Shown: in pieces, positions 2,600 to 61,100 of the stretch
Layout: every line of letters begins with the position of its first letter
How positions within the stretch are numbered: the first letter of the stretch is position 1
Source of the DNA: Sphaerolaimus hirsutus
Taxonomy: Eukaryota; Nematoda; Chromadorea; Monhysterida; Sphaerolaimidae
DNA length: 64,000 bases
Assembly (NCBI GenBank): GCA_964036195.1
Contig: OZ038460.1
Coordinates: forward strand, 15,069,504-15,133,503
Direction of reading: 5' to 3'
Translations under genes and position numbers: made by a program
Notes under the pieces: model-generated
Told to the model about the DNA's origin: nothing
What the model saw: the letters and a program-made list of their open reading frames with translations, nothing else
Database searches by the model: none

Positions 2600-4120
2600 T
2601 AGGGTGTCAAAAAAATTTTTTTACGGAAAACGGAAAACGGAAAACAGAAAGGTAAAAAAAAATTTCTGCCGGAAAACGGAAAACGGAAAGGTAAAAAATT
2701 TTCACTCAGCGGAAAACGGAAAACGGAAAGGTAAAAAAAAATTGTCGGCCGGAAAACGGAAAAATGAAATGCCGGAAAACGGAAAACAGAAAGCAAAATT
2801 TTCACGGAAACGGAAAAAAATAAAGTGAAATTAGCACGGTAATAGACAAATTTGCAGAAGGAAAACCTGCATGCAGGTTTGCCTGTTTGGCTTTGATTGT
2901 GGTAGCTGTACATTCTGCAACTATGGATCATGCCTGTAACTTCACTTGTAGTTCAAGCTTAACTGAACCAACAAAAAATCATCAAAAAGTAGCCATAGTG
3001 GCCATAGGAAAGGAAACACTACAACAATTTCACAGTCTAGAAGCAGTGGGAATCACTGATGACCCCTATGCAATTGATGGCAACATTCAGGGCAGGCAAT
3101 CTAGCATTAATTGCCAATATTGAAAAAGCATCTTTGCAAATAGGATTGCATGACCAAGCTAGAGACTACACACGATTTTTCTGGCTGAAAGATGCCTCAA
3201 AACCAGTAACTGAAAGTAACTTAATAGTACTTTGTTTTAAATGCGTACTGTTTGGACTTGTCTGCAGCCCAGCAATTTTGGGAGCAGTCATAAAATACCA
3301 TTTTAATGTGACAATAAACAACATGAATGAATATGAAGAAAATGAAGGGGAACGAAACCAGTTGGCGATGATAATAAACAACATTTACGTGGATAACTTC
3401 ATCATGAGTGTCACAAATGAAGTTGAAGCTTTAGAACTATATTACAAAGTCAAAGCTTTATTTAACCAATGTTCTATGAACATGAGGGAATGGCTGTCAA
3501 ACTCCAGATCAGTCATGAATGAAATAGCAGAAAATGGCAGGAGTCCAAAGGTGAATAAAATTGTTGCAGTAATGGGCATGAAATAAAATCACCGAATGGA
3601 CATGCTGGCAATATCAACACCAAAATTGCAAATTGACAGCATCACAACACCAACCAGACGAAACTTGAATAAATTATTGGTGTCAGCATATGACCCAATT
3701 GGGTTCACAGCACCTGTTTCACTGACCCTGAAATCCCAGTTGTCAATGCTGCTCCAAGAGACAAAAACAACACAATGGGATGAGCCAATTGAAGATAAAT
3801 ACAGATTGGAAAAACAATGGAAAAATGCCAGAAAACTGAAAATCTAGCCAGAAAATGGAAAAATGGCCTGGTAAAATGGAAACGGAAAGGTAAAAATTTT
3901 TCAGCCGGAAAACGGAAAAATGGGCCGGAAAAACGGAAACGGAAAGGTAAAAAATTTTCAGCTGCCGGAAAACGGAAAACGGAAGGGTAAAAATTTTATG
4001 GCTGCCGGAAAACGGAAAGGTAAAAATTTTTCGGCTGCCGGAAAACGGAAAACGGAAAGGTAACAAATTTTCCTGCGGAAAGGCGGAAACGGAAAACGGA
4101 AACGGAAATTTGACACCCTA
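2600..4120. mobile_element. hAT-type element with GGAAAAC arrays and captured Pao fragment
   Basis: Terminal inverted repeats TAGGGTGTCAA / TTGACACCCTA are flanked by the 8-bp direct repeat CTGGACAC (2592-2599 and 4121-4128). Both subterminal zones are arrays of GGAAAACGGAAAGGTAAAA units in inverted orientation; the interior holds the BEL/Pao fragment. No transposase is present. Confidence 0.85.
2887..3847 (+). pseudogene. BEL/Pao retrotransposon pol fragment, broken
   Basis: Two overlapping-frame coding pieces (3059-3586 and 3596-3847, about 260 residues together) resemble the reverse transcriptase region of BEL/Pao elements. Visible: a hydrophobic run with LFGLVCSPAILGAVIKYH, the RT active-site-like IYVDNF, then a downstream SAYDPIGFTAPV motif typical of the Pao pol polyprotein. 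Gag, protease, RNase H, integrase and LTRs are absent and there is a frame break near 3586. The fragment lies inside a hAT-type element (2600-4120), so it appears captured rather than independently inserted. Confidence 0.8.
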
Positions 4121-4661
4121 CTGGACACTGGAAACTGTATCCAAATGTGGCTGCAAAATCAGGCGAACGTAATTTTGTCGCGAAAAATGCAAAAATTTCG
4201 GAATGTTTGAGCAATTTTCATCCCTGGGATTTGGATGCAGCGAATTTGGGTCGCGACGCTTTCGTTTGCGCGGATGAATCACGCAAATTGGCATAGTGCC
4301 AACAGGTGAGACGTTTTTTCTGATGTGATTAACTATTTTTTAAAAGCTGTTCGATTCATTTTTATTGTATCTTGTATTGTGGGGCAACTTAGCTAAAATG
4401 CTGGAAAAGAGTGTTAAGCAAAGTCGTCAGATGTGAGATTGTTTCGACTGTGCAAATCGAAAATTTCCTTCCTGTAGACAATGTTAACGAGACCCGAATA
4501 CATTGTCGAATACTAAAATTTTCTATTTCACCGCCGAGATTCCATTCGTTTCGCAGTTGATTTTATCGAGTCCGATCTTTTTGCGGAAAAAATCCGGTTT
4601 TCCGGCTCAGTGCCAACGTTTCGTAATGCGTTTGAAACGGGGCTGTTTTTTTGACTGTGAC

Positions 4662-5923
4662 TAGGGTTGGGACGATATATCGAATATCGGATATCGACTA
4701 TTTTTTCATATCGAATATCGATATCGAAAATTTTGAAAAAATATCGAATATCGATATCGAATATCGACCATTTTTTCGATATTTTTCGATATTCAGAAGT
4801 GAGATGGTAGGTTTCAGTGTGGACTGCAAAGTACAACATGTAGCACACAGAGAGCATTTCCATTCACTAGCAAAACTGGCAAAGTGGTATCTTGGTGCAC
4901 CAGCCTCAAGTGTTTGTTTTTGAATGCTTTTTAAGCTGTGCTGGGAATATTTATGACCACAAAACATCAAATTTGAATAAAATATTTAAATATGCTGATA
5001 TGCTGCTGTTTTGCGAAATGCCCTTGGGCCAGGGGTATCTTGAATTTTGACCCTCCGAGTGGTTGGATAGATAGCAAATCGCTCCTCCAGAGGGATAGAT
5101 AGCTGAAAAATTTTCTGGGGGGGGTTGAGGTTTGGGGGGGGTTTCAGTTCGATATATAGGCTTTTTCGGGGAATAGAAGGAAGAAAAGGGAGAAAAATCG
5201 CTAAAAGTAGGTGTAAATTAGCTCAAAATGGGTATACAAGAGCATATAGTACTTAAAATAGCTGAAAATAGGCAGTTAGACGCATGGACTAGTGATTTTG
5301 GAGGTGAAAATCTATATATAGGTATGAAAAATAGCGATTTTGAGTGAAAATTGGGGTATAGTTTCTGAAAAATTGCTCCAGATAGGTAGATAGCTGGGCG
5401 ATTTGGGGGGGGGGGGGGTTAGGGGGTAGTAGCCCAAAATTTTGCCTCCGGGATAGATAGATAGCTGAGCGGCCTCCGGGATAGAGCTGGGCGGTTTGGG
5501 GGGGGGGGGGTAACCCCCCCACCCCCCCCCATTCGAGACCCCTGCCTTGGGCAATTGGGTTACATTACAAGTATGAATTCCAATGTCTGCTAATTATTAT
5601 TTGGTTGATACAGTTTGATTCTTCATGTTTTTATAACATTTTGAGTGCTTGTTATATCACTTTAAACTTTGTTTTGATCACTTGTCCTATTTCCTATGTC
5701 AGTAAACAGATGATCAACCATGTTTGTGACCAAATCGAAATACAATATGACATTTGAAGTATGCCCTGCTATATCAGGAGGAAAATATCGAAAAATCGGT
5801 ATCGAATATCGAGCATAATTTCATATCGAATATCGAGGTTTCATATCGTATCAATATCGAATATCGAGTTTCAGAAAAAAATATCGAATATCGATATCGA
5901 AAAGTCATATCGTCCCAACCCTA
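4662..5923. mobile_element. hAT-type element with ATATCG arrays
   Basis: Ends TAGGGTTGGGACGATA and its inverse; 8-bp target duplication ACTGTGAC at 4654-4661 and 5924-5931. The subterminal zones are ATATCGA/ATATTCG arrays. It contains a second hAT-type element at 5030-5544. Confidence 0.85.
5030..5544. mobile_element. hAT-type element with GATAGATAGC and poly-G tracts, nested
   Basis: Ends CAGGGGT... / ...GACCCCTG flanked by CCTTGGGC at 5022-5029 and 5545-5552. The interior alternates GATAGATAGCT motifs with long G runs. It sits inside element 4662-5923, so it is younger than that element. Confidence 0.82.
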
Positions 5924-11720: not shown

Positions 11721-11779
11721 ATAAGCACATCAGATCAATCATAAATATGACCAAATGAAAATAATAACTTAATTGAGGG

Positions 11780-11910
11780 ACACAATACAAGTTCGATATA
11801 TCGAAAAAATGGTCGGTATTCAATATTTTTTCAAAATTTTCGATATCGATATTCGATATTAAAAATGGTCGATATCCGATATTCGATACGATATATCGTT
11901 TGAACCCTAT
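11780..11910. repeat. Partial ATATCG element
   Basis: GATATATCG and ATTCGATAT motifs ending in GTTTGAACCCTA; a relic of the 4662-5923 type with a different end. Confidence 0.5.
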
Positions 11911-11989
11911 ATGTACCGTTTGTACTCGAATAAGACACCAGGATAGTTATTATTTGGACAGAAGTTTAGGAGGGGGTTATTTTTATCTA

Positions 11990-12315
11990 AGTGGTGGCAG
12001 TCGCAAAAGTCCTGTAAGGTGTCAAATGTTAAATCAAATGCAATGTCAATTGTCATGCAAAGTGTCAAATGTAACGTCAAATGCAAAGTAAAATGTCAAT
12101 TGTCATGTAAAGTGTCAAATCTAAAGTCAAATGTAAAGTATAGTATCAATTGTGTATCCAAATCTTCTGTCGACGAATAAGATTTGGATACACATGCGAC
12201 ACTTTACATAGGACTTTACATTTGACATTTTTCATGACAATTGACACTTCGACTTTGCATTTGACTTTAAATTTGACACCTCACTTTGCAGGACTTGGGA
12301 CTGGCTGGCACCAAG
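11990..12315. repeat. Foldback of TGTCAAATG units, introner-related
   Basis: GGTGGCAGTCGCAAAAGTCC ... GGACTTGGGACTGGCTGGCACC with arms of TGTCATGCAAAGTGTCAAAT units and a GTGTATCCAAATCTT hairpin centre. It lies just 3' of the last PEDS1 exon found. Confidence 0.6.
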
Positions 12316-12401: not shown

Positions 12402-15400
12402 ATGATGTATCTTGTGGTGCTGTCTGGGCAAGATCAAGTGTAACTTCTGCATGCACAGCACCATGGGATGCAAGCCGAAGTAGGTGTGCGCCCACTTGTG
12501 TATCTGATTGGTGATGGACACGTAGAAGCCGAGCAGCAGCCAGAACCAGTGCCAGTGGTAGTGCTGCGGTCGATTCCGAGAGTGGATAAGTGGAAAACCG
12601 GTTTGGAAGTGAGAAATTGAGAGCGAAGTGAATATAGAACTACCTAAGAAGCTAAAAGCGAAGTAAATTTATAAATGATAAGTTGAAAAGCTAAGTGCAA
12701 CTATAACTTTTCTTTTCAGTTTTTATTTGACTTTGCTTTTACCTTTTTTACTTCTCATTTCACTTCTAAATTAAGTCAATTTTATTTTAAATTTTCAATT
12801 AACACTTCCAAATTTTTATAAATCTAGCACTTGACTTCTCACTTCCAAAACATCTTTCCACTTCCCACAGACGCAATTGACACCTGGGCGATCTGCTCCC
12901 TGTCCATGGTGAGGTGCTGGTGCATGACTACACCGAGCTTGTAGGTGCACAGCATGAACGCGTCGCCGTTCACCTCGACGAAGTCGTGCCGGGTGATCGC
13001 CGTCGGGTCAAGGTGGTGCTCGCGGAATGGCCGGATGAAGTACTGAGATTGGTGGTCTTGAGTGTGCCGGGGTTGTGGGATTTTCGAATTTTCGGCGGCT
13101 TGTTTTGCAAGTTGAGAAGTAAAAATCAAGTGAAGGCGGTGAAAAGTCAAGTGACAAGCGTATCTAGGTATCTTCCGCGTATCTAGGTCTAGCATATGTC
13201 CCGGGGGTGATTGTTTCAGAGTGACAATTTATTATTTCGCCAGAAATTTTGGAAATTCCGGTAGTAAATTGTCGTCTGTAATGTACGCAGACGTAGAAAA
13301 ATGCAGCAATAATCGCTATTTTTGAGTCTATGGACTTAAATAAATGAGTAGATGACACAAAAACTGTTCTAACGTAACAATTCATTGTTTTTATGGTGTT
13401 TTGCATTGCCCGAATCACAAACCGCAGTTTTGTCATGTACGTTCTCTGTACACTCAATTTGGGGGGTATATCGGGGGGGGGGGGGTGATAAATTCATTGT
13501 GGCCATTTTGAGGGGGGGGGGGTATTTCTAGGAAATACGGTATTCTATTTCCTCGAAATACCCCCCTCTCGTTTTCCCACCCTCAAAATATGCACTATGA
13601 AAAAACCGGGGGGGGGGGGGGCGTGTAAATACGATATACAAGATATTATTTTTTTAAATTAAATTTTTAAATTATTTTTTTTACTTGTTATGCACTATAT
13701 TATCACTTTAATGTGGTCACTTGACGTTTTTACTTCTCAACCTGTTGAATTGGCCCCGGTTGTACTTACCGCTCCGAAAATCGGCATGTCGACGGTGCCC
13801 CACGTGTCCGACATCCAATGAACCAGGCCGCTCAGAAAATCCGCCGTCACTATGCCGAGCACTGCATTGTGCAAGCGCAGTAATGAATTCACAAGCGTTG
13901 CAATACTTTTGTCCATAACAATACTCACCAGCTGCCAACAGTACCGCCTCTACTCTGGCATTGAGCTCACGTCCTCTGTAGAGGAGAATGCTCAAGTCTG
14001 CCATCATTAGAAACATGCCAACGGTGACTGACACAAGTTCCAGTAGGCGCTTGTGCCATGAATACATCGATGCCTGTGAAATGCCATTCGCGTTTCAGGC
14101 GAGGGTTGAAGTTTTCAAGTGTTTTTTGCTATCTGACCACACCCTTTACACCGTATTTTCGTGTATAACGTCACGTGAAAAATTCAGAGTTGTTAGAAGT
14201 ACTGAACTTCATTCAAAGTAAACGTAAACATAAAGTATTCTTATTTTACTCACTGATGAGTACTAAAAAACTTTATATAAAATGTTTTTCGTAAAACGTA
14301 AAAGCAGTTTTTTCTCGCAGAAAACGTAAAAGTGAGTATTTTTTTCCTGTGGAAACGTAAACGTATTTACTCAGTACTCGAGTATACGTATTTTCGAGTA
14401 AACGTAAACACGTATTAACAACTATTGGAAAATCACGCACCAATCACCAAATTCACGCAAATCCAACCCCGAAACCTCCCTCAAACCGACCAACTGCCTA
14501 GCGCCGCTGTGTTTGGGCCCCCACCTGTCTCTGGTGTGTCCGGGCACCGGATTCACGTTACCGTTGGGGTCGTCCTCGGGCATCGAGTTGGCGTCGATCA
14601 GCTCGCGCCATTCCACGTAGCTAGACGTGTTGGCTTTGTTGTTGTAGTTGTTGTTGTTGTGGTTGTTGTTTGCGGCGGCTGAGTTGCCGGTGCAAAATGA
14701 AGTGCCGGCTGGGTGAGATGAGACTGCAAAGTGGCAACTAGGTAACTGTAGTGACTGTAGTTTTAAATATACCTAAGTGACAACTAGGTAAAAAAATAGT
14801 GGTGGAATGGTTCCATGGCGCCAAAGGGCACTGGCGCCATGGATCCATCTTTCCTGGCGCTTTCGCATGATTAGTGGCAATGGTAACTATGGACTTTTTG
14901 AGTTTTTTTGTCATTTCGCCGTGGCGCAACTGACGCTTGGCACCTAGGATGTGAAAAACCCATGGCTTCTTAGTCCCTTGTAGCCAAAGTCTTGGCGCTG
15001 TTCACACCACTAATTTATAGTCCGGTTGGTGAAGTATACCATCCGAATTTAGTATCATTTTTACCTATGTGGCATTTATTTTTACCTGCAGCCAGCCCGG
15101 CTCTGTTTGGCACAACGGATTCGGGTTGAATGACCAAAAGATGATTTGTCATCATTTTAGCGGCAGCTCTGGCACTGAGGGCACTACTCCCAGACCCCGT
15201 GAAATGTAAAATGTCATGCGAAGTGTCAAAAGCCATGTTAAATGACCTAGAAAATGGCACATTCGTTCGTTTGCCATTTTACATGGCATTTTCCTTGACC
15301 TTTGACACTGCATGACATTTTACAGGGTCTGGGAGTGGCACCTGGGCGACGCGGCATCCAGCGTGTCGTCAACGGATTTTTTATCTTCTCTTTGATTTGA

Positions 15401-20472: not shown

Positions 20473-20655
20473 CTACAGGGGGCCCTCCCAGACCCTGTAA
20501 AAAGTCCTGTAAAATGTCAAATGTCATGCAAAGTGTCGAAAGTCATGGAAAATGCCCTGCAAAATGGCAACTCGGTTGCCATTTTGCAGGGCATTTTCCA
20601 TGACTTTCGACACTTTGCATGACATTTGACATTTTACAGGGTCCGGGAATGTCAC
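20473..20655 (-). mobile_element. Introner-like element outside any recognised gene
   Basis: Minus strand: CTG|GTGACATTCCCGGACCC ... GAGGGCCCCCTGTAG. A near-perfect hairpin of CATGACTTTCGACACTTTGC arms. Flanking sequence could be minus-strand exons (open reading frame from about 20794 to 20656, continuing at 20472). Confidence 0.7.
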
Positions 20656-25500: not shown

Positions 25501-25766
25501 CTGGATAGTTCATATAAATATAGAACTAGTTTTACAGAATCAGCATTCATTACCAAAATCGGTCCACTCAAACTTATCGAAATAATTCACCAATTAACCT
25601 CCACCCTTACGGAACGCAACATGGCGAGACAACAGGAGACACTTTTACACCTTGGAAAAATGCCAAAATAAAATACCTATAACGAAAATGTGACAGCATT
25701 CTCAACGTACGCGTAATCGACGGTGAAATGCTTGGGCGGGCACATGAGTGCTTTCCTGTAACCCAT
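22523..25766 (-). CDS. DDAH/amidinotransferase-family hydrolase, complete
   Basis: Six exons on the minus strand: 25766-25711, 25335-25164, 24026-23841, 23487-23245, 23125-23063, 22660-22523 (stop TAG at 22525-22523). All phases agree, giving 285 residues, the usual family length. The family (guanidino-modifying, dimethylargininase-like) uses a Cys-His-acidic catalytic set. Visible motifs in order: ALMCPPKHFTVDYA, INPWMGG, GLPDMVFVCNAGLALG, FKHPERRGERSHY, FEGGGDAVF, FYHLDTCFCP (the expected catalytic His in HLD), FVCNAV, IEVDMSEFMKSGGACQCL (the expected nucleophile Cys near the C-terminus). The start used is MGYRKALMCPP; an in-frame ATG eight codons upstream is an alternative. Intron 2 contains a poly-G/GATA hAT-type element; introns 3 and 5 contain TTGACA foldbacks. 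The gene is tail-side neighbour of SEH1 on the same strand. Substrate (methylarginine or another guanidine) cannot be told from sequence. Confidence 0.93.
22850..23040. repeat. TTGACA-type foldback in DDAH-like intron 5
   Basis: CGACACACAATAAGTTGACAACC ends pair with GGTTGTCAACTAGTGTGCG; arms hold AACACATTTGAGTTA. A relative lies at about 23606-23762 in intron 3 and another at 20945-21205. Confidence 0.6.
24230..24752. mobile_element. hAT-type poly-G/GATA element in DDAH-like intron 2
   Basis: Ends CAGGGGTCTCC / GGAGACCCCTG; 8-bp duplication GTGGCAAT at 24222-24229 and 24753-24760. Same family as 5030-5544. Confidence 0.85.
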
Positions 25767-25897
25767 CACCGTGCGCCATGGAGGCGCCATTTTTCTGTGG
25801 CGTTTGTGCCAACTGACGTGGTGCAACGAAAGAAAGCTGTGCAAAACAGAAGAGCGAAAGTCTAATGTTTGTTACACACATACATGGCATTTCTGTT

Positions 25898-26622
25898 TAG
25901 GGTTGGGACGATATATCGTATCGAATATCGGATATCGACTATTTTTTTATATCGAATATCGAATATCGATATCGAAAATTTTGAAAAAATATCGAATATC
26001 GATATCGAATATCGACCTTTTTTGTCGATATTTTCGATATTCTATACTCCCTGGGCCTGACTTCAAATAAGCCAGGAAAAGCACTATTAGAAGGCGATTT
26101 CATAAGCAATTTTAACAAATTTTGCGCGCAAGCGCGCACTTTGTTTTCACATGACAGGTATTTTTGTTTCAGCACTTGCGGCAGCATCAAATCTTGTGCA
26201 AATGCTCTCTCAAATGTTCACATAAGAGTATATGTATGTTTAATAGCTACTTACACCATGGAAACATCAATGGCACCATGGCATGGCACCTATAAATGGG
26301 GCTGGCACCTTTTCCTTATCACATTTGTCACATTTTTAAATCATTTTCTCATTTTGATCATTGTGTGCCATTTAAATTTGTATCATCTACTTTTCAGTAG
26401 AGATGATCAGTTGGGTTTGTGATCAAATGGAAATGCAATATGCCAAATGAGATATGCCCTGCTACACCAAGAGCAAAATATCGAAATATCGATATCGAAT
26501 ATCGAGGATTTTTTAATATCGAATATCGATATCGAGGGTCCATATCGTATCGATATCGAATATCGAGTCTCAGAAAAAAATATCGAATATCGATATCGAA
26601 AAGTCATATCGTCCCAACCCTG
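25898..26622. mobile_element. hAT-type element with ATATCG arrays between SEH1 and DDAH-like gene
   Basis: Ends TAGGGTTGGGACGATAT / ATATCGTCCCAACCCTG; 8-bp duplication TTTCTGTT at 25890-25897 and 26623-26630. Same family as 4662-5923 but with a different centre. It fills most of the 1.17-kb gap between the SEH1 stop and the next gene start, with nothing else visible there. Confidence 0.85.
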
Positions 26623-26935: not shown

Positions 26936-29900
26936 TCAATACATGACTCTCATTTCATTGGCGCTGTGCTGCTCATTTTCGCCAGTGTGTTCTTCAGGTT
27001 TGAGTATCTTGGCCACAGACCACTGCCTGGTCGGCCCACCTGTAAAAATTCAAAAAAATTATATTTCTAAACGGCTAGGCAAATTCGACAAGGGAGGTAG
27101 GGTATGGACGACATGACTTTTTGCTATCTATATAGAGTTTCGATATCGATATTCAATGGGAAAAATGGTCGACATCCAACATTCGATATGAAAAATAGTC
27201 GATATTCGACGGGGGGGTTTTCTTAAAATATATCGATATGAATATTCGATATGGAAAAATATTCGATATTCTATGATATATCGTCCCAACCCTATGGGAA
27301 GGGGGTCACTGGAAGTAGTTGGAAGTTTGTGAAGCATAACAAACACTTAAAAGAAAAATGATCAAAAGATTGATTTCAAGCAGCGATGGTAGCTGATACG
27401 ACAAGCTACGACAAAAATTAATCCAGTGTAAAAAACGCCACGTAGAAGCGGGAGGGGGGCTACCAAAACCTACCTTTAATCAGACACACTTGCCCATTGG
27501 CTCCCGACGTGGCCAACATAGTCCCAGTACAGTTCCAGCTGACCCTCCAGGCGTGTCCCTGGGGGCAGTCTCGGACCCTGTAAAACGTCATGCAAAGTGT
27601 CAAAAGTCATGTAAAATGCCCTGCGAAATGGCAACCCGGTTGCCATTTCGCAGGGCATTTTACATGACTTTTGACACTTTGCAGGATATTTTCCATCTTC
27701 CAGGACATTTTACAGGGTCCGGGACTGGCACCTGGTGCACGTCCAACTTGGCCAGCTGCACGCAGTCGTACTGTTGCTGGGTGGTCGGTTGCCCAGCCCC
27801 TTGGATCTGTCCTCCAGGACCGGTGAGGGAGGCGGCGCTCGTGTTGACAGTGGTGAGGTCGGATTGAGAGCTGTGTTGAGGGTGGATTTGTGGCGCTTTT
27901 AAAGATCGTTATATTAAGGTAAAAATATAACTTTGTCGGTACTTCAGGTAACTTTCTTAAGTTAGAATTAGGGTTGGCCGATGTTTTTTTTTAAACGTTT
28001 TTTTAAAAAAAAAACATGACGTCCGAAATGTTTGTTTTTTTAAAAAAACATCGGCCGAAATTTTTAGTACTAAGCACTAGGTATTTTGCAAAATTTTTGC
28101 CAGTGTCTGATATACCTATATATGTTGACACTAGGTCATATCTGGGAGCTTTTAAAAAAAAAACGTTTTTTTTAAAAAAAAAACATCGAGTTAAAAAAAA
28201 ACGTTTTTTTTTCCAACCCTAGTTAGAATATATATGGCGTTCCATGGGCGTTCACGCTTAGGGGCGACCTGCCCCCAACAAGCTAAGCTTTACACACATT
28301 TTGGCTATCCTCTCCTAGTTTTTTTTTGAAAATGAAAGCTTAAGCAAGAAATGTCCCTCAGCCAAATAAAAATCCTACCGCATTTCCTCGAAATACCCCC
28401 CGGGGGTGATTGTTTCAGAGTGAGAATTTGGAGGGGGTTAAACGAGGGGGGGGGCTTATAAATTCATAGTGCCCATTTTGAGGGGGGTATTTCGCGAAAT
28501 ACGGTATGTGTTCAACCTATCTTCCGAATCCATGAAGGCACCGCGAGAACTGGCTGATCGAGAAAGTGCGCATCAGCTTTCATATTTCGGTTACTCGAAA
28601 ACCAACAAAAAACTCCACGAAGACACCACAAACCATCCAGGCAACCAAAATGAACCAACACAACAGGCTTCAGCGCGAACAGGTGCACGTGTCTGCTGGC
28701 GATGGCTAGCAAATGGTAGCTTCGGCCCAGCGACGGGGCGAACTGCGCGTCGAACACGGGCTCGCCGAAGTCGCACAGGGCGTCCATCAGGTTCCACGAT
28801 CTGAATGAGGGGGGTAATTGGGTTGCGATTTGACCATATTCAGAATTGCTTGGGTTGTTAACTATGTCACACTTCGATAAGGATTGTTTTCTTCAAAATT
28901 TTAGGTCTTTTTTTCACACATTTTTTCAACACAACTCAACATTCTTCCATCAACTTACACAATCACTCACAGTAAACACGCAGCACACTTTCCACCAGTA
29001 CGGCCACTATAAATCAACGACAAATGGCGCCCAAAACGCTCAAATCACTCATTAGCAGATCAGCGGGGAAAATAACTCTAGTCGACAGACATTGGCGCGG
29101 CTGCAATAAGTGGCGAATTATGCCCAACGGTTTCACAGTGGAATTTGAAGTTGGAGAGGTGATAAATATTAACGAGATAGTGTTAAACTATGCAAAAAAT
29201 CTTATCTCAAATTTGTGCGACCCCCCCCCCCCTTTAACTACGCAGCACAACGAATACATACCCGTTCCAACATCCGTTGGTAACGCACAGAAATTGGCAC
29301 CCAACCCAAATCCTACTCCGGCACCGACGCAAACGCCGCGAGCGAGTAGACGTATATCACGCCAGCGCCCAGTCCAGGTTTCCGACGCCAATAAAATGGC
29401 GCCAGCGCCAGTGAAACTAGCCGCGCCGGAAGTCAAGTGCTCAAAGTGCCAGCAGGGCTCCATCACGCTCACCCTGCAGGAGTACGGAGCGCTGGTGGAC
29501 TACTGCGAGAAGCTGACCGAGGCGCTAGCGTCAGTGGCACATTCAAAAACGCAGCGCAAAAAAATACGACGCAAAACACCCCCCCCCCCTAATTTCCAGG
29601 GCGTTCGAGCGTCGCTTCAAGGCGCCGGTCATCATGCGCTACACGGTGCACGTGCCCAAAAGCCAGGTGCGCAGCGGCACGGGCAGCCGCGCCATTGTGC
29701 AGCCCGGCGGCGACCAGGTGCCAGTTTCGCAAATTGAGAAGTGAGAAGTAAAATGGCAAATGAGAAGTGAAATGGCAAAAGTGAAGTGAAATGGCAAGTA
29801 AATTGGCAAAAGCGAAGTAAAAAATAAAATGTTATTTCTCTTCGCTTTTACCATTTTACTTCTTAATTTGCTCCGGTTTTGCCATTCCACTTCGCATTTG

Positions 29901-38662: not shown

Positions 38663-39727
38663 CAGGGTTGGCAAAATCTCAGAAAAAAATAAAAATAAAA
38701 TAAAAATAAAATGGAATATTCAAGAATAAAATAAAATAAAATAAAATGGAAAATTTAAGAATAAAAATAAAAATTGTATAAAAATTTGAATTTTTGTAAA
38801 TTTTTTGTAAAATTGTATAAAAATTCGTATTTTTGTAAAATTGTATAAAAATTCATATTTTTTGTAAAATTTTATCTCGTTGCTTGAGTTTCTACCTGTT
38901 TATTCATGGATCTGGGAGCAGTCCCAAGTGTAAAGTGACAAATGTCATGTAAAATGTCATGCAAAGTGTCAATTGTCATGACAAATGTAAGGTAAAGTGT
39001 AAATTGTCATGACATGTAAAAATAGAGTATCAATTGTCAAACAAATTGTGTCCAAATCTTATGTTTTATATCTAAATGTTTTGTTTTGTATCCAAATTAT
39101 GTTCTTGTTGAATCCAAATCTTATGTGAACATTTGGATACAAAAACATAAGATTTGGATACAAAACATACTATGGATACAAAAACACAAGATTTGGATAC
39201 ACAATTTACACTTTGCATGACATTTGTCATGACAATTGCCACTTTGCTTGAAATTTGACATGACACTTGACATTTTGCATGACAATTGACACTTTACTTT
39301 ACATTTGTCATGACAATTGACAAATTGCATTACATTTTACAAATGTGCCCAGCACATTCCACTAGTCCTTCTACTGAAAATGCAAACCATTCTTATCAAT
39401 AATTGTAACTTTACACTCGCAGCTAGCTAACAATACATACTGCATGCAACTTTTGAAGAGTAAGGGAAAAAATTTTCCCAGGTTATTCATGTATAGGTCT
39501 AATTATAACATTTATCTGGCCTTGCATGCATTATTCTGATTTTTTGTAAAATTTTTGTACAATTTTTGTAAAATTTTTGTAAAACGTGTCATTTTATTTT
39601 ATTAATAACTTTTGGGAATAAAATAAAATAAAATAAAATGAAACAAGAATAAAATTAAAATAAAATAAAATTTTTATACAATTTTTATACAATTTTACTA
39701 AAATGAATTTTTATAAAACCAACCCTG
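38663..39727. mobile_element. hAT-type element with AAATAAAAT arrays
   Basis: Ends CAGGGTTGGCAAAAT / CCAACCCTG; 8-bp duplication GTTGCAAC at 38655-38662 and 39728-39735. AAATAAAAT repeats fill both arms. A TGTCATG/ATCCAAATCTTATG foldback (about 38908-39362) is inserted in its centre. Confidence 0.85.
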
Positions 39728-44182: not shown

Positions 44183-44359
44183 CTAGGGACCAGTCCCAGA
44201 CCCTGTTAAATGCGCTGTAAAATGTCAAATGTCATGCGAAGTATAAAAAGTAATGTAAAATGCCTGGTAAAATGGCAACCGTACGTTTGCCATTTTACCG
44301 GGCATTTTACATGTCATTTGACATTTTACAGCGCATTTTACAGGTTCTGGGAGAAGCAC
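44183..44359 (-). mobile_element. Introner-like element outside any recognised gene
   Basis: Minus strand: CCTG|GTGCTTCTCCCAGAACC ... GGGTCTGGGACTGGTCCCTAG. Arms carry TGTAAAATGTCAAATG units. Confidence 0.68.
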
Positions 44360-52100: not shown

Positions 52101-55100
52101 TTGCCTCGGGATAGATAAATAGCTGAGCGGCCCCGGGGATAGATTGCTAGCTGGCGGATTTGGGGGGGGGTCACCCCCACCCCCCCCCGTAGTAAACCCA
52201 TGGCGCAGAGTAAATGCAGAATGCGCAAAATTCCATAAATTTTCTCGCGTGTGTAGCGCCTTATCTTCCAATTGAATCTGGCCCCAGCGCAGTCCCGCGC
52301 GCGGCTATCTCCGAGGGTGAAATTGTAACTGTAACTGTGCATAGCTAATGTGGCTGGCTCACGCTTTCGGGGGGCCCCACCCGGCGTGCTTAGATGCTCG
52401 CGTCCAGTCCATGCTCGGGTGTCATGCATTTTGGACACGTGTTTGTGTGTTTCTTGGCTGGGTGGGGGGTAGTAGCAGGGGTGTCTCGGGGGGGGGGGGG
52501 GTGGTGGAACCACCTAGCTGAGATTGTGACAGTCTGGGTGAGTTTTTGGACAATTGGGTTATTGTTTTAGTGGACAGAGTAATTTGGCATCCTCGTTCGT
52601 AGGATTTTATATGGCTCTTCGGCATCAGAATTCGATATTTTAAACTATTTCTGATGACATTCGAATGTATCCATATTCAGTTGAATGTATAATGTACCTG
52701 TGTCAGTTATAACCCTAAAATATTTATTTGTTGGCCAATCCTCTGAAATTTTTCCCCACCGAAAAATTCACTAGTAAAAATTAGTAAAATGTCACTTTGC
52801 AAAATTTAGCGGACACTTCTGCATGATTTTGTGCAAATAGAATAGAATAGAATACACAGTCTTGCCTGGAAGGATAAAACCGCGTTCCAAATAAGCCCAT
52901 GTGATACCTTCGCGGTAAATGGAGTTTTTGTGCACTGGCGTGAGACACTTTGCTGATAAGTTTTTGCAGCAATGAAACTGAAAGGCAAATTAACATCACA
53001 TTCCTGTAGCTGTGCAGATTTCTGCCGCGCCTCGCTTGGAAGCGTTTTTGCTTGTTTAGCGCAAAGCGCGACATTGTGCACCTGGGGCCAGTTCCAGACC
53101 CTGTAAAAAACCTGTAAAATGTGAAGCGTTATGTAAAAGACCCTGTAAAATATAAAATGTCTTGCAATGTGCTTAAAGTTTCACTTTCCGGCAAACAAGT
53201 TTCACTTTCCGGCGTCATGTAAAATGACCTGGAACATGGCAAACGGTTAGCCGTTTCCCAGGACATTTTGCACGACTTTAGAGACTTTGCATGACATTTC
53301 ACATTTACAGGTCTTTTACATGACCTTTCCAATTTTACAGGGAATTTGACATTTTACAGGGTGCGGAACTGGCACCAGTGTCACCCAGATGAGGTTCTCA
53401 TCATAAATATTTACCGTTTCTTCTTTATTGTATTTATTTGTTTATATGTTTAGGTGCCGACATTGTGTTAGTAACGATGTTCGCTTTCGCTGGACTAACC
53501 ACTAATGCATGTGAATTTCATGCATGCCTATATTTGTGATTGGCTAGTGTGCGGCGGTGGCACTTTAATCTGAATATTATACCAGAGTTGTTAAAAGTAC
53601 AAAACTTTTTTCAAAGTATATGTAAACGTAAAGTAATAATTTTTTACTTTTACTCATGAGTAAACACGAGTAAAATACTTTTCCCCCCAGAAAACGTATA
53701 CATGAGTATTTTATTAGGAATTTTGTCCTAATTTTCACTCAAGATCACTTAATTTAACCTTCAAATTCACTAGTTTATGTCTTATGTGCCTATTTTCAGC
53801 TATGTTTGCCAATTTTTTTCCTATTTTTCACTCCTTTCTCATTTTTTTCCATCTATGCCTTGAAAAGCCTGTCACAAAGCATATCTAAAATACGTTTTCT
53901 GTACTCGAGTACTTTCAAAAAGTATACGTAAAAGCGAGTACAGGTACTTTTTCAAAGTATACGTAAACGTATTTACTCAGTACTCAAGTGTACGTACTTT
54001 TTGAGTAAACGTAAATAAGTTTTAACAACTATATGTATTATACTCGGCAGTAGTTAAGAAAGTCGGTGTAGTTTCAGCGCAGAATATTGTTCGCTGCTTT
54101 AATCGCAGCTAATAGATATCTTTGTACACCAACTGGTGTATAGCCACAAGGGGTTGAAATGGGATATCGAAAAAAACTGCTTGGCTATTTATTTGTTTTC
54201 CCATTTATTTACATATTTTTTAAGCTGTTTATGTGTTTATTTATGTGCCCGTTTAGCTGCGGCATTTTTCTATCTGCACCTTGTAGAAGCGTATTCAGCG
54301 TATTTCCCGCGCCAATTTTTATGCTTTTGATTTATCGGTCGGGAAACGCGATTTGTCATCTTATACACCCCCACAAAGTTCAAATTTTGTTTAGCCGTGG
54401 CTGTAGCCAGGGTCACCGTGAATTCTATGCGCTACTTTAAAACGATTTACCGAATGATGAAAATTATTTTCTTGAAATACCCCCTTAGTGGGTTTATTAT
54501 TTTTCCAGAAAATTTTGAGGGGGTGATTTCGAGGGGGGTTTATCATGTCGTCATAATTTCCCTGAAAGTTCGTGGCAGATTTGTTACGTTAACGTACTCA
54601 GATAAGAATAATAACAACACGGTTTATACTGAACTTGTATTCATCAATCCATGTAATATTTACTACGGTACTCAAATTTATTTAATGAATCCTTCCCCAG
54701 GTTTACTCATTTGTCCGCAATGTTACATTTCACATTATTTATATGCTGAGGAATATTTCAACCGGGGGTGGTAGGGATAGTTTGAGGAGTGGGGTTAATT
54801 TTCCCCCAGCTCACCGAAAACTCCTATTTCTGGGACTCATGCATCTCCATAAGCGCGATATTACATGAAAGGGCGGCCCACCATAAAGCATTTTGAAAAT
54901 ATTCAGTTTTCTACTGCTCATCTCTCATCTGTCTTTGTAGATCCCTGTAAAGCACTTTGTATTATTTATTGCCCATGGTTTTATTTTGCCTGATAAATTC
55001 TTGTTTGGTTAAAATCGTATGATGTATGATGGTTTTTATTCGGGTTGTTTTTAATATTGAACTTTGTTTGTAGTTTTTTTTTGGATAGGGTTTCTCTCTA

Positions 55101-58100
55101 AAAGTTTTTTTTATCGTGGTGTTTTTGCGTGGTGTTTCAAAAATAGGCGACTGGGTATTCTACTTAGAAGCAAACAAAAATAGTAATTTTAAGTGATTTA
55201 TGTACCGCCACTAAGCCAGTAAGCTAAACCGACATATTTAATTCAACTCTTTTTGCGTATCCAAATATACCACCAACATACCACACCCTTCAATTTGTCC
55301 CAACCCAACCCAAAATACCCCCCCCCATAACAGTTGGATACGCAATCGACAATCCTCCATCGACAGCACCGCCTATGCAAGGAACGAGTGACGCTGCTCG
55401 GCCACGCGCAACAAACGGCTGATATTCGTCGGAGTTCTGCCGCGCTGCTGGCGGGAGCTGCGAGGGTTTGTTGGGGGGGGGGGAGTTGTTTGAGGGGGAA
55501 GGGTTGGGTTGTGATGGGGGAATTATGGGCCGTGAGTGACCCTTGAGTGCTGCGCTGCTATGCTGGTGCTCGTCGATACAGTCTATTCATTTGGATACTG
55601 GTGGGGTAGCCGTGCCCGTGGGTAGGGTGGCCGTGGCAGAAATTAGCGTACCGTACCGCGTACCGCACTTTACGATCTACCGTACTACTTACCGCAAAAT
55701 AGAAAAGTTACCTTACAGTACCGCCCTTACCTAAGTGTACCGCAAAGCCGTATCATTTACCACCCAACCTGTGGCCCGAGCACTAGGGTGGCAGACGGTA
55801 CGGCCTTGCGGTATACCGTTCCTGGCGCCAATCCCAGACCCTGTAAAAGTGTAAAGTAAAGTTTCATGCAAAGTTCAGCAATAACTTTTTTGTTTTGATT
55901 GACATTTTACGTGACATTTGACCCTTTACTTTACACTTTACAGGGGTTGGGACTGCCCCCTGACTCATTTTCACATTCTTTTCTCCCAAACACCCCCCCC
56001 CCCCTCTCAGTGTACCGCTGCACATGCCCAAGTAAACATAATGGAATCTTCCTGCCCGCCCTGCTACAACGCGACGGGCAACAATTCGCCCGACAGTGGC
56101 GCGCCCTGTTCGGAAACGGAATTTCGAATTTCCGAATTTTCGAACAACGCTACGCAGCGCGTATTGGATTATGGAAATGTGATGAGTTTGAGCGTGGATG
56201 CGGCTAATCAGATGGGGTTGGTTTTCTTTTTTTTTGGGGGGGGGGGGTTGTGCGTCAATGGCCCCACACACTAGTTGACATCGACACCAAATGTCAACTG
56301 GTTCCGATCCCAATTCAAAGATTGCTGACGAGCCAACGAACAACGTTCAAATGTGAACTTTGAATTGGGATGGGAACCAGTTGACATTTGGTGTCGATGT
56401 CAACTAGTGTGTGTGGGTAGGGTTGGCCGATGTTTTTTTTTAAACGTTTTTAAAAAAAAAACAACGTTTTTAAATAAAAAAAACATGACGTCCGAAATGT
56501 TTTTTTTTTAAAAAAAACATCGGCCGAAATTTTTAGTACTAAGCACTAGGTATTTTGCAAATTTTTTGCGCGCAAGCGCGCAATTTCACACACAAATTGA
56601 CATTGGTGGTTGTTTTCATTGGTTTTGTTGCATTTTTAGTATCAAAACATCCATTTCTATGTGCTACCATGGGTGAATAAGCCGACATATGTTGCTGTAA
56701 TATATAATATTGAGGTAATGTGCGTCCATGTACCTCCACAGTGTGTAACTTCACTCCCAAAGTAACAACCTCCTTTTATAACCTTGTTTGATCACCATTC
56801 CGTGCCAAACTTTACCTGAAGTCACGAACATTCGACTATAAGGCGATATACAAACAATATGTCGACGAAAAATGGATATTTTTGACACAAATCACCACTT
56901 ATAATGCTATCCCATGGCTCCACAGCCATTATATGGTCATATTTAACATCACTGAGTATTGCCAGTGTCTGATATACCTATATATGTTGACACTAGGTCA
57001 TATCTGGGAGCTAAAAAAAACGTTTTTTAAAAATAAAAAAAACGTTTTTTTTAAAAAAAAACATCGAGTTAAAAAAAAACGTTTTTTTTCCAACCCTATG
57101 TGTGGGGCCTAGTTTAAGGTGGGATAGTGTCGGCTGTATTATGAGAATTATGAAAAAAGTTTAAAAAAAGTGGAAAAATGAAGAATAAATTGTCAAATAA
57201 TGTTGCTTTATTTCACTCAAATGTTAAGGTATTTTTGCGTTGTTATCTTAAACCAAAGTGGCTATTAAATTTGAATAAATGAAAAATGTTTATTCTATAA
57301 AATATTAGTCAATTCATTTTTATAAAACAACAAAAGAATCCTAGTACGACAAGTCGTAAAACATTCCTAACCTCGGATCTTTTTTCTCACGTCAAAATTT
57401 TTGAGCGTATTTGAGCTAATCCAATTATGTTCGCCGCGCGGCAACATCTGTTCGTATCCAAAATACAAAGTGATTCTTTGGCCCGTTTCACACACACATT
57501 ACTAAATACAGATTTGGACAATTTCAAGATCACATTCCTTTTTGCATTTCAGACACTGTGATGCGGAAGGTGCACTAGAGGCGTATTTTCAGGTAATTTT
57601 TAGTGTTGTATGTTTTTACGCATAATTTTAAAAAGATTTTTGCTGTGTGTTTGCTACGTACAGTCCTGTGGATGTAGTACACTTTCCATTAGAATTTTTT
57701 ATTTTCTGCTAAACTATGAAAAATCTCCATTCAAAAAATCACAAAACGTGAACAATTAACCTGTGAAAATCTCTGTTGATTACCGATTGTTAAATTGTCA
57801 TAAGATCTAGTGATGTTAAAGCGCCATGGTGATGGCACTAGCGCCAACGCAAAAAGCGCCATGGCGCTTTTTACGCCACTAGCCCTATCAGTTCGACACA
57901 TTCAGCTTCCAAAAAGCCTAACATTTCTTTCAATTTTTTCAATGACTCATAATATATTTTTGTGACATTTGTGTCTTGTCGCAGCACAACTGCGTACGAT
58001 TAGTGGGCGTGGCTCAAACTCCCGAGACGCCAAAGAAAAAACCTATACCGGTGCCGCGCACGCTGACGCACAAACCGAATGTGCTTGAATTGGATCAAAT

Positions 58101-61100
58101 CCAAAACGGGTTTGTGGTTATTTTTGCATTTTATTGCTGGATATGAGTTATAATAATTTAAAGTTCCAGTTTGTTATTATTTCAAATAAAAAAATACCTG
58201 CCAAATGATAATTGACATTGCAGTGGCGTTCTCATCGTGCACTGCGTACGCACGCTTGTATTTACGTTTGCAAAGTTCAGTAGCTAGAGTAAAACTTTCT
58301 CGTTTAAAATCGACCGCCACCCATTTATATACTTTTGCAAGATCGGTCTTGCACATGCAAATATCCCAGCTCGCGACCGCACTTCCACCGATAACCCCAT
58401 ATAACCCCACCACCCTCATACAGGTCGCAAATCCCGCCAGACACCTACCTAATAATCGAGCGAGACTCTTTGGACATCACTTCGTCGCAGCACCATCACC
58501 AACAACACACGGTGCACGAGTGCGACTATGTGAATGTGCACGAACTCGGCTGCCATGTCGCGGACATGCGGAACGAGTGTGGGGGTGTGGCAGATTTTGG
58601 CAACGCCCCGCCGCCGCCGCTGCCAAAACATGGATGTCCCAGTGTGCAGGTACAGGTTTTTTGCAAAGGACGGGTGGCAGTCCCGCACCCTGTAAAGTGT
58701 AAAGTGTAAAGGATGTCAAATGTCATGTAAAATGGCATACAAATTTGTCAAGTGTCACGAAAAATGTAAAAAGTTCAATAATAAGAATTTTTTATATTAT
58801 AAACGACATTTTTACATTTGGCTGTCTACTTTACAAGGTGCGGACTCCCCCCCCCCGGGTCAGATTCAATTAGAATGTAAGGCGCGAGTAAGGTGCGCAA
58901 CATATGCTCACATCGTGCGCCTTATGCGCTAGTTGAATTTGGATCCTAGTGTTTGATTATGATTAGAAATCTTTTCGCAGTTGTCTGATTTGCGTCTAAC
59001 CACGCTGGCCAGCCAGTGCTTCAATGCTGCGTGTTCCGCGAGTGATGGGACTGAAAATTTTGACAATCAAAATTTGCATTGTGCCAGATTAATGCCGAAG
59101 CGACAGAACAGCGAGAACAGCAGGTACATTTTATAGCCTTTCTGGTGGCAGTCCCGTACCCTGAACTTTTCCATGTAATATTTCAAATGTCACTATTTTA
59201 CACCAAATTACATGTACAATATTGTGTGACGTTTTACATTTTACAGGGCTCGGGATTGGCCCTTTGAATTAGTCTCACATTTTCTCATATTTTTTCAATT
59301 TTTATAATTTCACAGGAACACCCAGTCCTCCGAGGGGCAGTGTGCTGAAAATGTCGCTAGGAATACAAGCGATTCGAGTAATATGTTGCTGCCTGTGTTC
59401 ACTACCAGACATGCGGTCCGTTTTGGCATTTGACTTTTTGTTACAGTAAATAAATATATTCTGCCGATGGGTGAAATAAACTGTGCAAAAGCATATCTTG
59501 AAGTGAAAACTATTCAATTCAAAGTATTTTGCAAATTTTGTTATGCGTTTTTCTTAAATGCCAGATTAGATATGTTTGTGCAAATGTGTACCCGAATATG
59601 TGTTATAAATCACTATAATAAAGCATGATATGTACAAAAAAGGCTCAAACTTACTGGTATATAATAGGATACCAATAAACACATATTTTGTCTTGTTTTC
59701 AGTCATCGTCACGGGCATGCAGCACTAGCAGTTCCACCCAGAATCAAAAAGAAAAACTGCGCGATTCCGATGGCGCCAGTGACCAAGTGCACACAGTTGA
59801 GGTGTGTTTGGAGTATTGTGTTTTACGACTGAAGCTAGTATTCTAACGGGATCGGGATTGGGGCTTCGGGATCGGGATAGCTGAATCCCGAAAAATATCG
59901 TGATCGGGATCCCGTTTAATCCTAACTGAAACAATCAGTTTTTAGGGCTGGACTGCACTACTTCCATCAGCATCAGCATTTTTGAGTTGAAAAATCTTCT
60001 GTTTTGGACGCAACAACTAATTTTAACATGTGGAGTAATTTTCAGATCGGCAATTTGGACCAGAGCCAATTGCACTATGCCAGCACTAGTCTGTATGTGG
60101 ACAGAAATAAGACAATGGGACTGGGCGGTGGAAAGTGCAGAAAGGTTAGATTGTGCCATTATATTATGCAATTCAGTCGATTTAGAATTTGAATAATGTT
60201 TTTATGCTAAAAATAACAGTTAAAAAAGCCAACAAAAACTGTCAATACTGCAATGTCGATATACCCATTTACTTTTAAAACCCCCCAAATTTCAACAATT
60301 GACGCATTTCAGAATGGGCCACCCTGCTCATACAACAGTGTGGACGACAACAGCAGCGACGATTACGCCCTGCCTCCTGACGCTTGTGACAACAAAAGTT
60401 TGCACATGAGTTTGATGCATGGATATGGAAAGGCGATACAGGGTGAACCAAGTAAGAAATGTTGTTGTTTTTATTGGGGTTTTTGCAGAGGGGGGGGGGG
60501 GGGTGTTTGTTCATGATGGGAACCTTGCAAACTCGAAATGTTTGGAATTTCAAGTTCTGTACCGTTGCTTTTGCAATGCAATTAAAACAGAATAAATTAT
60601 TGCACGCAATGCAAAAAATGTTCAATCACCAATGATTTTCAGGTAGCAGTAAAGTGCACCTGCAATCGCCTGCTAAATCTGGCTTGGTGCCAATGAAATC
60701 AGGCTACTTGCAGCTGGGCACCGAATCTCGTTTCCGCAGTCTGAAACGCAGATGGGCCGTGCTTGAATCGTCTGGCAGATTCTCACTTTATAAGAGTCAT
60801 GTGAGTCAACGTTTTGTACAATTTAATAATCACTGAGTCAGCCTGACAACTGGCAATAATGTGGCGCTATAACTTGAAAATGCTCCATGGCGCTTAGCCC
60901 CCACTTCAAGTCTAGTCTTCAAGTCTGAGCCTTCGCTCAATGGCCCCTCACACACTAGTTGACATCAACACCAAATGTCAACTGGTTCCGATCCCAATTT
61001 CAAGCTTGCATTTGAACGTCGTTCGTTGGCTCGTCGGCAAGCTTGAATCGGGATCGGAACCAGTTGACATTTGGTGTCGATGTCAACTAGTGTGTGTGGG

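Follow-up and report, generated by a model that had tools for sequence, protein, structure and literature searches.

A probable palindromic introner in SEH1 of Sphaerolaimus hirsutus and the copies of its family that end without AG

Introners have been described in Micromonas, Aureococcus, and other organisms as non-autonomous DNA transposons with inverted ends, which generate target duplications of 3-9 bp and whose insertion creates an intron (Gozashti et al. 2022, PMC9860276). The 2022 survey places introners in just two groups when animals and land plants are considered, and both of these are animals. In the pattern drawn in its Fig. 2C, one splice site comes from the element and the other from the duplication, as is the case here, although the family in that figure has no terminal inverted repeats. 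The family described in this study is distinguished from the surveyed introners by the combination of an animal host, an element that is palindromic over its whole length, a CWG duplication, and many copies without AG (PMC9860276).

Two other systems resemble the family in part. The introners IE-B and IE-D of Micromonas have been reported with GT-TG splice sites (PMC3879977), as is proposed here for copies flanked on both sides by CTG. However, they have 25 and 6 members in an alga, range from 100 to 6,494 nt, and some carry a long ORF; unlike in the present family, neither a palindrome nor a CWG duplication is mentioned in that report's account of them (PMC3879977). The introner elements of Amoebophrya have hairpin-forming inverted repeats, direct repeats of 3-5 nt at the intron boundaries, and non-canonical splice sites, but according to their description they belong to many families with no fixed inverted-repeat motif and no clear donor dinucleotide, whereas here there is one family with a fixed GT (PMC7789003). 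Because of these reports, neither GT-TG introners nor hairpin introners are unprecedented. The TG 3' splice sites of human genes are of the U2-type GT-TG and can be likened to the GT-TG introns suggested here; in the human set as reported, however, the TG acceptor is always an alternative to an AG within 28 nt and never the sole acceptor, unlike in our reading of the CTG/CTG copies (PMC2374985). Our literature search found no report of an animal that harbors one large palindromic introner family whose GT is fixed and whose targets are a natural mixture of CAG and CTG. Taken alone, SEH1 intron 8 is an introner of a known type, and the novelty lies in the family with its non-AG copies.

The SEH1 insertion and its predicted removal

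The DNA analyzed (the window, 64,000 nt) carries SEH1 on its minus strand. The exons of the gene were first placed with a human SEH1 sequence, and the join was then checked against solved SEH1 chains. Intron 8, a number given in an earlier note on this DNA and consistent with the present gene reading (in which the start of the upstream exon is approximate), spans 173 nt (27559-27731) and is composed of a near-palindromic element of 170 nt and a CAG, which is one of the two copies of a 3-bp target duplication (Table 1). Read on the minus strand, the exon end GTGCACCAG is followed by the intron, gtgccagtcccg...gagactgccccCAG, and then by the exon start GGACACGCC. The element ends in CCCC, the CAG beyond it is a duplication copy lying outside the element, and the other copy is the end of the upstream exon. 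The insertion codon is thus CAG (Gln), with the order exon ...CACCAG, element, CAG, GGACAC, and the insertion is in phase 0. The predicted GT donor is formed by the first two bases of the element, and the predicted AG acceptor lies within the second CAG copy. The earlier note had taken the intron to be a whole palindromic element running from terminus to terminus. The palindrome was confirmed, but 3 nt of the intron belong to the target duplication and not to the element, and GACTGCCCCCAG, which the note gave as a terminus, does lie at the intron end but takes in the duplication.

The 173 nt form a single hairpin with a folding energy of −79.8 kcal/mol as DNA, compared with a mean of −19.4 for shuffled sequences (z = −19.2; none of 200 shuffles folded as well); in this hairpin the two arms are 87% complementary and separated by a 1-nt spacer. 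Folded as RNA together with 30 nt of exon on either side, the intron gave z = −18.4. An Rfam search of the whole 64,000-nt window returned 0 matches.

Table 1. Positions in the window of the SEH1 introner, its neighboring exons, and the other copies with both ends recognisable
Feature	Position	Strand	Basis
Introner body, 170 nt, near-perfect palindrome (hairpin MITE)	27562..27731	-	fold, arms, family copies
Target duplication copy 1 (CAG), the Gln codon that closes the upstream exon	27732..27734	-	sequence and CWG rule
Target duplication copy 2 (CAG), AG = predicted 3' splice site	27559..27561	-	sequence
GT of predicted 5' splice site, first two element bases (GTGCCA, weak donor)	27730..27731	-	sequence
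5' terminal inverted repeat GTGCCAGTCCCGGACCCTGTAAAA	27708..27731	-	sequence
3' terminal inverted repeat, end = GAGACTGCCCC	27562..27585	-	sequence
Palindrome arm 1	27568..27636	.	arm comparison
Palindrome arm 2	27638..27706	.	arm comparison
SEH1 exon upstream of introner, 5' limit approximate	27732..27870	-	SEH1 comparison
SEH1 exon downstream of introner, then next donor GTAGGT	27474..27558	-	SEH1 comparison
Copy with both ends, CTG/CTG in listed orientation, flanks without gene assignment	20479..20655	-	end search
Copy with both ends recognisable	15181..15341	-	end search
Copy with both ends recognisable, diverged	44187..44359	-	end search
Longer copy, left CTG, right CAG	53085..53375	-	end search
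Copy, CTG/CTG	55825..55959	+	end search
Short diverged copy	59145..59262	+	end search

Exact removal of the intron left no gap across the join in alignments with solved SEH1 chains (7vci_C, 3.9e-9; SEH1-A), in agreement with the in-phase exon join proposed earlier; the match of the joined peptide to Pfam WD40 was weak (E 0.0013, below the curated cut-off). Use of the inner acceptor TTTTACAG, alone or together with the inner donor GTAAAA, causes a frameshift in SEH1. The inner donor, which lies 18 nt further in, keeps the frame when it is paired with the outer acceptor and adds the six residues VPVPDP, and it is therefore a second candidate donor in SEH1. In a genome search for an empty site or retrocopy of SEH1, the joined flanks matched their own locus only.

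By eye, introns 1, 3, 4, 5, 6, and 9 of SEH1 are GT-AG. Intron 2 (window 36283-35968, minus) was seen to have GT...TG ends with CCTGG at both boundaries, and its removal gives ...TASW/K YHSGS; it cannot be recognised as a member of the introner family, and a different inverted-repeat element seemingly lies inside it.

Copies of the element and their place in coding sequence

At no more than one mismatch, the 24-nt 5' end of the element occurred 4,664 times in the genome searched (348 Mb, 762 contigs), compared with 0 for a reversed-pattern control. In gene orientation the element starts with GTGCCAGTCCC and ends with GGGACTGCCCC, and the similarity among copies extends to the splice boundaries. 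The element is short, lacks coding capacity, has terminal inverted repeats and a target duplication, and is present in high copy number, as a MITE is. BLAST of the SEH1 element against the window gave many matches, and both ends were recognisable at seven places, SEH1 included (Table 1). Searches for the element end in viral_contigs and genome_contigs gave 0 and 0.

Other repeats were seen in the window. Two longer arrays (12004-12293 and 38929-39341) are akin to the inner repeat of the element, which is about 19-20 nt long (TGTAAAATGTCAAA-like), and are perhaps older or related subfamilies. Short repeats translating to FSISIFDI- or YRISISN-like strings recur at several places (e.g., 4531-4863, 11777-12088, and 25762-26067), and an open frame of 181 codons on the plus strand (3041-3583) appeared retrotransposon-like by eye.

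To gauge coding potential, codon use across the join was scored for either strand, with each locus left out of its own model and the model seeded with sense loci supported by homology. From 128 loci, 14 without a 3' end were dropped, as were 23 of the other 114 as duplicates or overlaps, leaving 91 distinct copies. These loci comprised the fetched copies nearest to the SEH1 copy (L001-L028), copies chosen for a CAG end (L029-L058) or a CTG end (L112-L131), and 50 of the 4,664 occurrences, the first on contig C1, which were the only loci picked regardless of duplication (L059-L108). Among the 91 distinct copies, 34 were apparently coding in the sense orientation, which is that of SEH1, and only one in antisense (L028), while 8 were ambiguous and 48 non-coding or unclear. 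The ratio of 34:1 (p = 2e-9) is as splicing predicts, because in the opposite orientation the element presents GG instead of GT on the gene strand. The scores are noisy: L025 and L006, which are sense by homology, scored higher in antisense, although neither locus reached the threshold, and the score of L099 came out ambiguous. The sense copies are in phase 0 (24), phase 2 (9), and phase 1 (1), and GTGCCA is unvarying at their 5' ends, by which many of them had been fetched. Retention of the element as a protein insert was rejected, since with the element left in place the reading frame stays open in none of the 34; the length is divisible by three in 18 of them, but all of these contain stops.

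Exact joins were also found in other genes. They were gapless for a CAG/CAG copy in a Frizzled gene, for both introners of a Na,K-ATPase alpha gene (L049; the selected copy and one 5' of it at about 640-825), each flanked by CAG/CAG, and for a CTG/CAG copy in a cyclin-like gene. Two further introns of the Na,K-ATPase gene are GT-AG by eye. Pfam gave no match for six antisense and four further sense peptides, and several sense peptides overall were without a match.

Of the 44 unselected copies with two ends, twelve belong to the 34 sense-coding copies, and four of these twelve are represented there by the id of an overlapping locus. The same share of all 4,664 ends would amount to about 1,270 coding introns; the estimate is rough, being extrapolated from a single chromosome end, and an interval of 15-43% gives roughly 700-2,000. 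The flanks of one copy (L017) have a second place with 99% identity (C174:34122-34513 and C2:24464564-24464936) and an insert at the same site in both; the aligned flanks enclose 188 nt in one case and 169 nt in the other, which suggests alleles or duplicates whose hairpins differ in length. A genome search with the flanks of SEH1 and L017 found no allele without the insert.

SEH1 has other introns, and it might be supposed that the element entered or replaced an older intron at the same place with no intron gained. However, an element lodged in an old intron would still be flanked by remnants of it, whereas the boundaries at SEH1 and at seven other homology-checked loci correspond to the base with the element plus one duplication copy, and we regard this supposition as highly improbable. 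Even less credible is removal of the element from the DNA by programmed elimination, as in ciliates, instead of from the RNA. Elimination would accommodate exact removal together with a short repeat regardless of the acceptor dinucleotide, but the sense-only bias and the unvarying GTGCCA (with the reservation that many copies were fetched by it) point to RNA, and we know of no animal with programmed DNA elimination inside genes.

We therefore suggest that SEH1 intron 8 is very probably an introner: a short, non-autonomous hairpin MITE whose insertion into a coding CAG duplicated this codon and which is removed from the transcript by splicing. The earlier note had reached the same reading, and the genome search it proposed supports this: copies of the element number in the thousands, and 34 of the 91 distinct copies scored are apparently coding in the orientation of SEH1. 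The family also has terminal inverted repeats, a CWG duplication, a sense bias, and exact joins.

Target duplication and the putative transposase

When four exact whole-element patterns were searched genome-wide without shifts (elements of about 165-194 nt), the left and right trinucleotides were CAG/CAG in 225 copies, CTG/CTG in 120, CTG/CAG in 60, and CAG/CTG in 23. The association between left and right is strong (p = 7e-37), and these counts therefore identify the target duplication as CWG. A 3' end was found in 44 of the 50 unselected copies, and the flanking trinucleotides were identical in 30 of these (CAG 15, CTG 12, CGG 2, and CAT 1), a count slightly biased toward agreement, since the flanks were allowed to shift a little in search of a match; the non-identical flanks were CTG/CAG in 5 copies, CAG/CTG in 1, and other in 8. 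Two other duplications were considered and rejected: for a hAT-like duplication of 8 bp the flanks mismatched by eye, and a 5-bp CCWGG duplication fits SEH1 but not most copies, which CWG does fit.

The NuwaI group of the PHIS (PIF/Harbinger-ISL2EU-Spy) transposons, found mainly in animals, has been described with 5'-CWG-3' target duplications, which it has in common with the introner family (PMC4482050). That group was defined from its transposases. We infer that a transposase of the CWG-targeting NuwaI type moved the element; no paper pairing "introner" with "NuwaI" was found in the literature search. A genome search for DDE_Tnp_4, the Harbinger-type domain, gave at least 163 matches, many of them near-alike copies (e.g., L109 and L110). 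An autonomous partner with introner ends was not found at the three of these loci read or in six end-only copies: among the matches listed, L109-L111 had no introner ends (best 15 of 25), and no transposase was evident by eye in the six copies in which the introner 5' end had no 3' end nearby.

Copies without AG at the 3' boundary

The right boundary of the 34 sense copies has AG in 23 and none in 11, of which nine are CTG/CTG, one is CCG/CTG, and one is CTG/CGG. The earlier note missed the non-AG copies of the family, which are an addition to it. All nine CTG/CTG copies that passed the coding thresholds were in sense (p = 0.004). Of ten CTG/CTG sense peptides compared with Pfam, five matched at the curated cut-off, namely to DEAD box (L025), OSCP1 (L070), E1 dehydrogenase (L097), permease (L099), and short-chain dehydrogenase (L020). 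The OSCP1-like gene is interrupted in sense by its CTG/CTG copy and rejoins exactly, without a gap. The joins were gapless against structures of DDX47 for L025 (9.5e-30), BCKDHA for L097 (1.9e-13), and IFT70 for L016 (1.8e-23); in L020 there are alignment gaps, which lie away from the join. For a CTG copy, GT-TG is the only removal that restores the proteins while keeping one canonical end. The CTG/CTG copies would thus imply GT-TG splicing, perhaps aided by the hairpin, with TG as the putative 3' splice site, as judged from the orientation bias and the exact joins.

The CTG/CTG copies in genes might instead be unspliced, being recent, harmful insertions that segregate and were caught in the one haplotype assembled. 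Their boundary has no AG, GT-TG is rare, and they are fewer than the CAG/CAG copies (120 vs 225). However, a sense orientation in nine of nine coding copies is unexpected for unspliced insertions, and some lie in genes expected to be essential (DDX47- and BCKDHA-like). We consider this possible but unlikely. Somewhat less likely still is that the CTG/CTG copies are removed through other splice sites, such as an AG in the downstream exon or the inner TTTTACAG; most of the 34 sense copies have this sequence or a variant of it about 16 nt ahead of the target copy on the right. The inner acceptor would shift the frame in SEH1, and its spacing to the element end is equal in the others; the distance to a downstream AG differs from locus to locus, with none within 60 nt in L020, and conserved residues directly after the join would go missing.

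Splicing at the outer sites, including TG, is the reading that we prefer. Insertion into CWG should produce equal numbers of CAG/CAG and CTG/CTG copies, but they occur at 225:120 (p = 2e-8), and CTG/CAG exceeds CAG/CTG at 60:23 (p = 6e-5). AG looks favoured, not required, at the 3' boundary of the introner. The presence or absence of AG on the right was 23:11 in coding and 24:24 in non-coding copies, a difference short of significance (p = 0.12), in a sample enriched for both types by design.

According to the mechanism that we propose, a CWG-targeting transposase would move the element, and insertion into CAG would duplicate the target so that it flanks the element on both sides. The spliceosome would then take the element's own GT as the donor and the second target copy as the acceptor, and removal of the element with one target copy would leave the coding sequence as it was before. 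In the RNA, the arms would pair over most of the length of the element and bring the weak outer sites together at the foot of the stem, which would also hide the better-looking inner GTAAAA and TTTTACAG sites. With the outer sites brought together by the stem, CTG may therefore be tolerated like CAG, and part of the family would make GT-TG introns. The precision of the outer join and the acceptance of TG could thus both follow from the pairing of the hairpin.

In its widest form, to which we give an even chance, the interpretation is that a palindromic transposon with CWG targets has given an animal genome many introns, some of these ending in TG without AG, that the hairpin joins the ends so that the spliceosome needs GT but not AG, and that AG was later gained by selection, as the excess of CAG/CAG and of CTG/CAG would reflect.

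Introners are the best-supported source of new introns, and a large, fairly recent-looking family in an animal makes the birth of introns observable amid ordinary, intron-rich genes. The mixture of CAG and CTG targets provides hundreds of near-identical introns of one family that differ in the acceptor dinucleotide, which is a direct test of the extent to which the AG rule can be relaxed when RNA structure joins the ends. If the interpretation is true, animal GT-TG introns with no need of an alternative AG would be contrary to what has been stated as the rule in human genes.
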